A stretch of 43,686 nt of DNA, from assembly GCA_905233845.1 (NCBI GenBank), contig CAJOFH010000023.1, positions 1-43,686 of the forward strand. Reading direction: 5' to 3'. The notes under the pieces are model-generated. The model searched no databases, was not told where the DNA came from, and was given only the letters and a program-made list of their open reading frames with translations. The position numbers were made by a program, and so were the translations under genes. Shown here one piece after another: positions 10,063 through 15,399 of this stretch. Position 1 is the stretch's first letter, and the number at the start of each line of letters is the position of its first letter. Source of the DNA: an uncultured Muribaculaceae bacterium (lineage in GTDB: Bacteria > Bacteroidota > Bacteroidia > Bacteroidales > Muribaculaceae).

Positions 10063-10144
10063 TATATTTGCACATTCTTTAGTCAAAATTGCTGTTGGAG
10101 ATTTAGAATAACTCAATATTAACTAACTAAAAAACCAAACAAAA
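10063..10144 (+). promoter_or_regulatory. DGR cassette 1 promoter and leader (duplicated)
   Basis: TATATTTG (10063-10070) fits the -7 box. The following leader to ATG 10145 is about 85% identical to 13665-13746 in front of cassette 2, including the CACATTCTTTAGTCA and AATAACTCAATATTAAC blocks. Keeping the leader in both copies suggests both targets are expressed from equivalent promoters. Confidence 0.65.
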
Positions 10145-10486
10145 ATGAAGAAATCATTGAAAATGATGGGTCTCGTGACCTTGTTGGTCGTGGCTTTCGT
10201 GTCATTGACCTCACTGCGTTGTGCCGACTGCACTTGGAAGTACAACTGCACATTAAAAGTGTATTTCAAAAACGGTGACCCGGCAGCCAATGTCACCGTC
10301 ACTGCCGACTATGCCGGCTTCGCCGGTGGCATGCACGACTTCAAGACCAACAGCAGTGGTGTGGTGAAGTTAGGCTGGGAGTCGCATCGCATCAAAGGCC
10401 TTTACATTAAGAAGGACTACTATGAGGTGGACTACAGTGACGGTAGGTCCTATTCGTTGACCATCAAGAAGAACAAATACGACTAA
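10145..10486 (+). CDS. Small exported beta-sandwich protein of DGR cassette 1
   Basis: 113 aa with a signal peptide (hydrophobic MGLVTLLVVAFVSLTSL). The mature part reads like a single Ig-like or carboxypeptidase-regulatory-like module (LKVYFKNGDPAANVTVTA ... HDFKTNSSGVVKLGW ... LYIKKDYYEVDY ... YSLTIKKNKYD). Its start sits on a leader shared with its paralogue at 13747, and the variable-protein gene begins 5 nt after its stop. The constant pairing in both cassettes suggests it works with the variable receptor, for example as a chaperone, a stalk or a secreted partner. That role is inference, and I know of no assigned function. Confidence 0.75.
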   Translation: MKKSLKMMGLVTLLVVAFVSLTSLRCADCTWKYNCTLKVYFKNGDPAANVTVTADYAGFAGGMHDFKTNSSGVVKLGWESHRIKGLYIKKDYYEVDYSDGRSYSLTIKKNKYD

Positions 10487-10491
10487 TCAAG

Positions 10492-11514
10492 ATGAAGCGT
10501 TACTTGTTATTCGCGTTGCTGCTGGCTTTGCTGGCGGCAACGCCGTTTGATGTCGCAGCTCAGAAGGGCAGGAAGACAAAGAAGACAACAAAAGCCACTT
10601 CAACCCCTGCTCCAACTTCAACTCCAGTCTCAACTCCAGTCTCAACTCCAGTCTCAACTCCAGTCTCAACAAGGGGGGCTAATACCCAGACTTTCACAGT
10701 TAATGGTGTCTCGTTCACGATGGTGAGGGTAGAAGGCGGCACGTTCACTATGGGTGCTACCAGCGAGCAGGGCAGTGATGCATATAGCGATGAAAAACCT
10801 GCCCACAAGGTTACGGTGTTGTCGTTCTCCATTGGGCAGACCGAGGTGACACAGGAGTTGTGGCGTGCGGTGATGGGCAGCAACCCGTCGGAGTTTGCTC
10901 CTAAAAGGGCTGACGCTTCTCGGTGTAACTACGACAGCTTTGTCGCCGATGCCAAGCGTCTCAATGACAAGAAGCCTGGCACAGTGCGCATCCCATCTCG
11001 AGAGGAGTGGGACGTCGCTATGGTCACAACCTCTGGTTCGATGAAGCGTCCTGTGGAGAATGTGAGCTGGGATGACTGCCAGACGTTTATCAAAAAGCTT
11101 AATCAGTTGACTGGCAAGAATTTCCGCCTGCCTACCGAGGCCGAGTGGGAGTTTGCCGCACGTGGCGGCAACAAGAGCCGTGGCTACAAGTACAGCGGCA
11201 GCAATAACATTGACGATGTGGCGTGGTATGAAAAAAACAGCTACGACAAGGGAAAGAATAGTCCCGATTATGGAACTCATCCTGTAGCTGGCAAGCGCGC
11301 CAACGAGCTTGGCATCTACGATATGAGTGGCAACGTGTGGGAGTGGTGCCAGGACAAGTGGTATTACTATGACGGCAGCAGCTCTTCGGGCTCTAACCGC
11401 GTGGACCGTGGCGGCGGCTGGGACGACCTCGCCGGGGACTGTCGAGTGTCGAACCGGAACCTCGACTCGCCCGCCAACCGCGGCAACCCCCTTGGCTTGC
11501 GCTTGGCTCTATAG
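10492..11514 (+). CDS. DGR variable protein 1 (secreted FGE-sulfatase / C-type-lectin fold)
   Basis: 340 aa. A signal peptide (MKRYLLFALLLALLAATPFDVAA) is followed by a basic KGRKTKKTTK stretch, a Thr/Pro/Ser linker with four TPVS repeats (from a 12-bp minisatellite at 10621-10668), then an SUMF1/FGE-sulfatase domain. Landmarks: VEGGTFTMGAT, FSIGQTEVTQELW, FRLPTEAEWEFAARGG and YDMSGNVWEWCQD. This fold is one of the known homes of DGR variable regions. VR1 encodes the last 41 residues (300-340), a surface-loop region followed by the constant GLRLAL end. Against its paralogue at 14087 it has an extra ~45-residue segment (about 140-185). It should act as a secreted or surface ligand-binding protein, not an enzyme. 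Confidence 0.92.
   Translation: MKRYLLFALLLALLAATPFDVAAQKGRKTKKTTKATSTPAPTSTPVSTPVSTPVSTPVSTRGANTQTFTVNGVSFTMVRVEGGTFTMGATSEQGSDAYSDEKPAHKVTVLSFSIGQTEVTQELWRAVMGSNPSEFAPKRADASRCNYDSFVADAKRLNDKKPGTVRIPSREEWDVAMVTTSGSMKRPVENVSWDDCQTFIKKLNQLTGKNFRLPTEAEWEFAARGGNKSRGYKYSGSNNIDDVAWYEKNSYDKGKNSPDYGTHPVAGKRANELGIYDMSGNVWEWCQDKWYYYDGSSSSGSNRVDRGGGWDDLAGDCRVSNRNLDSPANRGNPLGLRLAL
10621..10668 (+). repeat. 12-bp minisatellite in variable protein 1
   Basis: Four perfect copies of ACTCCAGTCTCA in frame, encoding TPVS units in the linker between signal peptide and FGE domain. Degenerate copies precede it. Copy number could change by slippage without shifting the frame. Confidence 0.9.
11388..11514 (+). 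repeat. DGR variable repeat 1 (VR1)
   Basis: 127 bp, collinear with the template repeat at 13108-13234 without gaps. It differs at 16 positions, all of them adenines in TR (A to G, C or T), and no non-adenine differs. The encoded stretch changes TR's Asn-rich RVNRGGSWNNNARNCR to RVDRGGGWDDLAGDCR and continues likewise. The last 27 bp, from the start of the final invariant block through TAG, match TR apart from the CCC codon just before it. Confidence 0.97.
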
Positions 11515-11535
11515 TTTCCCCTTCAAGAGAAGAGA

Positions 11536-11607
11536 GCATTAATGTGATTTTGCAAAATAATAGCTCGTGCGTAGCTGAGCTAAAAATAGGCGAAATCACA
11601 TTAATGC
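11536..11607 (+). other. VR1-distal hairpin / cruciform
   Basis: Arms 11536-11553 and 11590-11607 (GCATTAATGTGATTT...) pair over 18 bp with one mismatch. A nested TAGCTC / GAGCTA pair (11561-11566 and 11577-11582) lies in the loop. It begins 21 nt after VR1, exactly as in the second cassette, and is absent after TR. No T tract follows directly, so it is not a normal terminator. In the Bordetella phage DGR a hairpin just after VR is needed for target recognition, and this is a likely counterpart. Confidence 0.7.
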
Positions 11608-11631
11608 GATTACCTAAGGCGATAGTATTTT

Positions 11632-15097: not shown

Positions 15098-15118
15098 TTT
15101 CCCCTTCAATAGAAGAGA

Positions 15119-15190
15119 GCATTAATGTGATTTTGCAAAAAAATAGCTCGTGCGTAGCCGAGCTAAAAATAGGCAAAATCACATTAATGC
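15119..15190 (+). other. VR2-distal hairpin / cruciform
   Basis: Perfect 18-bp arms (15119-15136 and 15173-15190, GCATTAATGTGATTTTGC) with nested TAGCTC / GAGCTA (15144-15149 and 15160-15165). It starts 21 nt after VR2, the same spacing as in cassette 1. The right-arm change relative to copy 1 improves pairing. Confidence 0.7.
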
Positions 15191-15216
15191 GATTATCTAA
15201 GGCGATAGTATTCTCA

Positions 15217-15246
15217 GCCCGAGCGAGAGCGAGGGCTTACTTTTTT
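15217..15246 (+). terminator. Terminator-like hairpin, cassette 2 copy
   Basis: GCCC...GGGC with a 12-nt loop, then TTACTTTTTT, corresponding to 11632-11663. It may end the cassette 2 transcript. Confidence 0.45.
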
Positions 15247-15252
15247 GAATAT

Positions 15253-15399
15253 ATGCAAATAAAGACCTTTATAATCAATTCATTAAATGTCGAGCAAAGC
15301 GAGACAGAAGTCAACCTGTTCTTGCGCTCTCATCGCATCTTGCGTGTGGAGCATCACTTTGTGGAGCATGACAGTTCTTGGGCAGTGCTTGTGCAATAA
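15253..15399 (+). pseudogene. Truncated HRDC accessory gene (N-terminal module only)
   Basis: 48 codons plus stop, nearly identical to residues 1-47 of the intact HRDC protein at 11670 (MQIKTFIINSLNVEQSETE ... SSWAVLV). Homology stops abruptly at 15392 (equivalent to 11809) and the frame ends two codons later. The HRDC domain is gone. This marks the right boundary of the duplicated target cassette. It could still be translated as a small protein, but I treat it as a remnant. Confidence 0.8.

Follow-up and report, generated by a model that had tools for sequence, protein, structure and literature searches.

An HRDC-type diversity-generating retroelement with one template, two targets and a long inverted repeat behind each variable repeat

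Introduction

How does one template repeat (TR) come to rewrite two genes, and which sequences between the genes might direct it to them? This question is raised by a diversity-generating retroelement (DGR) of the HRDC type, a known kind, in the genome of an uncultured Muribaculaceae bacterium. The window referred to below is the whole stretch of DNA analysed, 43,686 nucleotides of contig CAJOFH010000023.1. DGRs as such, HRDC accessory genes, several variable repeats (VRs) per TR and the overlap of TR with the reverse transcriptase (RT) gene are already published, as the available parts of four papers attest (PMC4891356, PMC3240598, PMC6642488, PMC3521204). New here are the parts between the genes: each VR is followed by a GNA-capped inverted repeat, TR is followed by a conserved element, and the second target belongs to a duplicated unit that includes an HRDC fragment, all of which the preliminary description of this DNA had missed. 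Hairpins have been predicted for most chromosomal DGRs from unpublished data, according to a passage of PMC3240598, and a search of mainly open-access literature found no earlier description of the long GNA-capped repeat or of the TR-side element of HRDC-type DGRs. We consider it likely that one template rewrote two FGE-fold genes at their 3′ ends, with priming in the element behind TR and homing via a cruciform formed by the inverted repeat.

Results

Anatomy of the element

The preliminary description had announced a complete DGR in which one template serves two targets, and TR, two VRs, the RT gene, the HRDC gene and two FGE-fold targets were indeed all found, arranged as follows.

10022..10144 (+): leader of unit 1, with a second copy at 13624-13746 (102 identical columns among 118 aligned)
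10145..10486 (+): small gene 1, 113 aa, without Pfam or NCBIfam family; beta-sandwich predicted via the model of its paralogue
10492..11514 (+): target 1, 340 aa, FGE-sulfatase (C-type-lectin-like) fold, PF03781 at 2.3e-51, with a Thr/Pro/Ser linker
11388..11514 (+): VR1, 16 of 127 positions unlike TR, all at A
11536..11607 (no strand): long inverted repeat and predicted cruciform 1, 72 nt, apex GC-GTA-GC at 11569-11575
11670..12131 (+): HRDC accessory gene, 153 aa, Pfam HRDC at 2e-06
12106..13116 (+): reverse transcriptase, 336 aa, Pfam RVT_1 at 1e-13, with IGNLTSQ and YMDD
13108..13234 (+): TR, overlapping the RT stop codon at 13114-13116
13259..13363 (+): conserved element behind TR, with AAACAGG at 13265-13271, stem P2 at 13283-13305 and stem P3 at 13320-13363
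13624..13746 (+): leader of unit 2, a repeat of the unit 1 leader
13747..14082 (+): small gene 2, 111 aa, 45% identical to small gene 1, model pLDDT 81
14087..15097 (+): target 2, 336 aa, FGE-sulfatase fold, PF03781 at 4.7e-54; a zinc-ribbon match lies below cut-off
14971..15097 (+): VR2, 17 of 127 positions unlike TR, all at A
15119..15190 (no strand): long inverted repeat and predicted cruciform 2, apex GC-GTA-GC at 15152-15158, 3 differences from copy 1
15253..15399 (+): duplicated HRDC start, the first 48 codons followed by a stop of its own, 8 of 48 codons different

Pfam comparison agreed with the family assignments first made for the RT, the HRDC accessory gene and the FGE/C-type-lectin-fold genes that end in the VRs. 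The IGNLTSQ and YMDD motifs lie at RT residues 182 and 214. The HRDC gene overlaps the RT gene, whose final bases in turn sit within TR. The model of the HRDC accessory protein (pLDDT 73.9) combines a beta-alpha-beta-beta N-domain with the HRDC helices; the HRDC fold was among its best structure matches, none of which reached E<=0.001, and the structure search gave no convincing fold match for the N-domain. Both targets are likely secreted, judging by eye from their hydrophobic N-termini. They diverge between the N-terminus and the FGE domain (10597-10668 versus 14190-14410), where target 1 has 12-bp repeats coding for a Ser/Thr/Pro/Val linker and target 2 a zinc-ribbon-like stretch. The family of small genes that precedes each target gave 56 matches in the Bacteroidales and occurred in 1 of 297 genomes of the family, namely this one; the predicted beta-sandwich had no fold match at E<=0.001.

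The element is neighboured by genes for an EptA-like transferase, a nucleoside phosphorylase-like protein and RsgA. The EptA-like phosphoethanolamine transferase gene (8262-9968, +) adjoins it, and a chromate-transporter pair (7024-8150, −) lies nearby.

Adenine-only differences between TR and both VRs

Realignment of the three 127-bp repeats reproduced exactly the substitution counts given at the outset. TR differs from VR1 at 16 of 127 positions (9 A>G, 5 A>C and 2 A>T) and from VR2 at 17 of 127 (8 A>T, 8 A>G and 1 A>C), and all 33 of the 33 pooled differences fall on a TR adenine. With 34 adenines in the 127-nt TR, the chance of A-only differences is 2.7e-11 for VR1 and 4.4e-12 for VR2. The genome is a draft of 112 contigs, which might suggest that the VR differences stem from assembly error or from ordinary divergence, but figures of this order leave such an explanation practically no room. 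Between VR1 and VR2, 21 of the 34 TR-A sites and 0 of the other 93 positions are different, versus 78% identity of the target bodies upstream (aligned columns only, beside 404 gap columns). Of the 34 adenines, 28 occupy the first two positions of AAC codons, which no such mutation can turn into a stop.

Nine TR-A sites are altered in both VRs, with 8 expected under independence (16 x 17 / 34), and three of these nine carry the same base, which matches a chance expectation of one in three. Since both counts lie near chance, VR1 and VR2 look like separate homing products, and the earlier statement that at least two homing events took place is thereby supported. A 161-base query containing TR matched only TR, VR1 and VR2 in the 3.2-Mb draft genome. 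Among the best 120 of 7809 protein matches of the target, no near-identical second copy was seen other than the window's own protein, the next match reaching at most 71%.

A relic, i.e. an element once active of which only the marks are left, would fit with the truncation of the second HRDC copy and with the rarity of a close RT in the genus (2 of 101 genomes, this one included). Yet all core ORFs are intact, the RT motifs are in place, and no non-A difference has accumulated among VR1, VR2 and TR although the flanks have diverged, and we regard a relic as very improbable.

Duplicated unit and second target

Behind TR follows a second unit composed of leader, small gene 2, target 2, inverted repeat and the first 48 HRDC codons, and target 2 evidently arrived with this duplicated unit, including the HRDC fragment and a hairpin of its own. 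Identity between units 1 and 2 amounts to 86% in the leader, 93% at the target start, the above 78% in the target body, 96% from the VR end to the repeat end and 95% in the HRDC start; the small genes were compared by protein identity (45%). Four of the eight changed codons in the HRDC fragment are synonymous and four are not, too few changes to judge whether the fragment is kept as a protein. A tree of 21 FGE domains was tried for the origin of the target 2 body and set aside with 14 of 18 inner branches open.

FGE-fold paralogues abound in this genome, 31 stretches of which match target 2 at the protein level. One such paralogue lies within the window (33496-34314, −; Pfam FGE-sulfatase fold at 3e-50), is 63% identical to the FGE part of target 2 and is without a TR-like repeat.

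A relative, L209 (RT in L077), has three targets. One of them precedes HRDC-RT-TR and has a long repeat, and targets 2 and 3, placed after TR and without a long repeat, have more non-A mismatches (5 and 4 in the first 130 positions, versus 1 in target 1). A cruciform as the cause of clean VRs was considered here and dropped, the L209 counts being too few for proof.

Relatives with the same gene order

A close RT was found in 2/101 genomes of the genus, in 20/397 of the family (E<=1e-30), and in 31/393 genomes of the order and 39/395 of the phylum (E<=1e-60 with alignment). Forty-seven of 159 loci examined had an RT-model score of at least 340, and all 47 had an HRDC match, as did four of the 112 loci below 340 (L035, L088, L099 and L129). 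Because HRDC-type members went into the RT model and we set the cut of 340 ourselves, this association is a description of the clade and not an independent test. A TR/VR pair was present in 42 of 49 HRDC-type loci scanned, the other seven being omitted, and the order was VR-HRDC-RT-TR in 42 of 42; in L082 the third pair was taken as VR, the first two being A-rich low-complexity matches. For comparison with phage-type elements, the best 80 of 179 viral relatives were kept and 88 phage-type loci scanned, of which 75 had a usable pair; among viral contigs bearing a single RT none was confirmed. L033 has a second, weak HRDC match at 8308-8548 (+; 38 bits) on the strand opposite to its DGR.

A GNA-capped inverted repeat behind VR

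In both units the VR is followed by a 72-nt inverted repeat of about 26 pairs that is capped by GC-GTA-GC. Of the three differences between the copies one lies in an internal loop, one creates a pair and one turns G.T into A-T, no pair being broken. A long hairpin in this place recurs across relatives even though its sequence differs between loci. We compared 43 regions (the 42 loci plus the second unit of this element); many of them are close kin, one genus supplying 14 of the 43 (L101, L103, L105-L115, and a sister genus, L117 and L118), and the counts below are not independent events.

The hairpin picker scores complementarity only, and as a positive control it returned the known GRNA tetraloop in 41 of 75 phage-type DGRs. 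The best hairpin behind VR had a GGA loop in 19 of 43 regions and any GNA triloop in 22 of 43, these apices coming from five taxonomic families (f1, f27, f70, f111 and f136). The corresponding GGA and GNA counts were 1 and 3 in 430 shuffles, 0 and 1 in 84 RT-gene windows, 0 and 1 in 39 regions behind TR, 0 and 1 in 75 mostly phage DGRs, and 0 and 1 in 16 further DGRs without HRDC match. The median arm score was 46 behind VR (43 regions), 29 and 29.8 in RT windows, 33 behind TR, 31 in phage-type DGRs and 28.5 in shuffles. The arm score exceeded the best of 10 shuffles in 37 of 43 regions and did not in 6, and the hairpin energy was below that of all 50 shuffles in 28 of 43 regions and not in 15, among which L076 had its region set wrongly. 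In 21 of 43 regions the best hairpin is without a GNA triloop (e.g. L006, L077, L080, L081 and L084). G.T pairs account for 37 of 874 hairpin pairs (9 of 43 hairpins omitted). A universal 1-nt bulge below the loop was rejected, the bulge register being better in 14 of 33 hairpins, worse in 16 and tied in 3 (the loops of L035, L072, L073 and L075 having been placed by motif). Beyond the element, at 15886-15970, the window has another inverted repeat with 30-nt arms that are 70% complementary.

A different reading would be that this is an ordinary multi-target DGR, of which there are many (271 of 948 DGRs had more than one VR in the survey excerpted from PMC6642488), and that the repeats and the region behind TR are terminators or general 3′-UTR hairpins without a role in homing. 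At least five T within nine bases follow the repeat in only 2 of 43 regions (L075 and L076), and as the other 41 are without a T-run the repeats are not built like terminators; GGA and GNA loops stand far above all controls, which also speaks against this reading. Together with the data on stem P3 given below, this makes the reading without a homing role an unlikely one. The GC-rich stretch at 11633-11662 was also considered as a terminator and discarded, as the terminator scanner does not call it.

A conserved element behind TR

A stretch resembling RAACMG, a stem P2 with CAAA usually behind it, and a stem P3 enclosing strands that resemble TTAGTA and GAA occur behind TR in the relatives as here; in the window P3 has a TTTAGTA / GAAC internal loop and a T-rich tail. 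Full alignment of P1-P3 across relatives succeeded in placing P3 only. With a score of at least 5.5 required, the P3 search picked out 29 of 47 regions, compared with 6 of 470 shuffles and none of 84 RT windows. In 19 rows picked for a good P3, with the window and L026 left out, GTA is present in 19/19 and GAA in 18/19, and 9 of 9 pairs of the stem change on both sides. The P3 cells of these rows are paired in 93.3% versus 53.5% when shuffled and at most 48.5% when slid, and the covariation score is 1.031 versus 0.270 and at most 0.261, respectively. The AGUA/GAA of P3 is presumably a bulged-G (loop E) RNA motif.

Applied to 29 held-out HRDC-type loci, a model built from the 19 rows found P3 at E<=0.05 in 18, of which 11 are close kin of training rows; it also found P3 in 2 of 51 other loci, namely L129 with its weak HRDC match and L121 with its RT cut by the contig end. 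It had no match in a search of the whole window and overlooked the actual site in L026, the closest relative; in an unfiltered search of 601 bases its top match was 13319-13364 (13.0 bits, E 0.0077). Taken as a whole, the element of the window has no better fold than its shuffles (z −0.52 for 146 nt and −1.52 for 112 nt), and P3 alone has a folding z of −2.9. Rfam gave four matches below cut-offs over 9900-16000, none of them behind TR.

P3 has T-rich sequence behind it, with at least 5 T in 9, in 35 of 36 testable regions, and the element thus also looks like the terminator of the operon; the HRDC-RT-TR transcript probably ends at P3, as far as sequence can tell, even if the terminator scanner does not call it. 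This speaks for terminators without a homing role, as the stem could be kept for termination alone, and part of its covariation may come from such upkeep. A terminator does not, however, need the GTA/GAA internal loop that is retained in 19/19 and 18/19 rows. By analogy with BPP-1, the TR-side element and the repeat likely serve template and target recognition.

Discussion

The roles of the inverted repeats and of the TR-side element in homing are derived by analogy, and the sequence of events we propose is as follows. The HRDC-RT transcript would read through TR and stop at stem P3. RT and the HRDC protein would bind the RNA of the element and make mutagenised cDNA, much as the BPP-1 spacer does with bRT-Avd. 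The long inverted repeat would extrude as a cruciform, with a DNA-type GNA mini-hairpin at its apex that marks the VR for homing; d(GC-GNA-GC) is described in the part of PMC4686876 at hand as an extraordinarily stable DNA mini-hairpin. The HRDC protein, named as an accessory locus of DGRs in PMC3240598 (excerpt) and kin to the DNA-junction-acting domain of RecQ helicases, which mediates DNA-structure-specific activities (PMC6773442, likewise an excerpt), might be the factor that handles the cruciform, and is the obvious candidate for a reader of the hairpin code. Target 2 would then have been diversified because the duplicated unit brought along its own inverted repeat.

Whether HRDC-type DGRs as a whole are a separate homing class, in which a GNA-capped cruciform is read by the HRDC protein, a loop-E-like GUA/GAA spacer RNA is read by the RT, and VR plus cruciform form a portable cassette whose tandem duplication recruited a second protein, is to our mind an even bet. 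A junction-acting HRDC domain beside a conserved long cruciform offers a direct test of the role of HRDC in DGRs. If the reading is true, targeted protein diversification would have, beside the parts of BPP-1, a second set with its own loop code and spacer RNA, and the duplicated unit would show how a DGR gains targets.

The DGR of the Bordetella phage BPP-1, as far as the consulted parts of PMC3240598 and PMC12875486 describe it, has in common with the present element the RT, the adenine mutagenesis between TR and VR, an inverted repeat behind VR and a spacer RNA behind TR. Efficient homing there requires the hairpin behind VR, whose loop is sequence-specific (PMC3240598), and the spacer folds, recruits bRT-Avd and primes the cDNA (PMC12875486). 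BPP-1 differs in having Avd and the order VR-TR-RT, whereas here HRDC is present and TR lies behind RT, and its hairpin is an 8-bp stem with a GRNA tetraloop, in contrast to the 72-nt repeat here, which has about 26 pairs and a GTA triloop. The phage-type hairpin, a GRNA tetraloop on a 7-10 bp stem, was accordingly seen in neither copy. Two nucleotides added to the BPP-1 loop abolish function (PMC3240598), and because that system tolerates a longer loop or much longer stems poorly, the HRDC clade likely reads a different code.

The HRDC-DGR of Treponema denticola, in the portion of PMC4891356 consulted, shares the HRDC accessory gene overlapping RT and the extra targets, but its accessory gene lies between TR and RT, in contrast to VR-HRDC-RT-TR here. 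In nanoarchaeal DUSEL4 DGRs the hairpin behind VR has a similar loop, a GRA trinucleotide, but this hairpin is inside the target gene whereas ours stands behind it (PMC4372165, in extract). In DiGReF structural group 3, too, TR and the 3′ end of the RT ORF overlap; the pertinent section of that paper judged the arrangement irrelevant (PMC3521204), in contrast to the single arrangement seen here in 42/42 loci.
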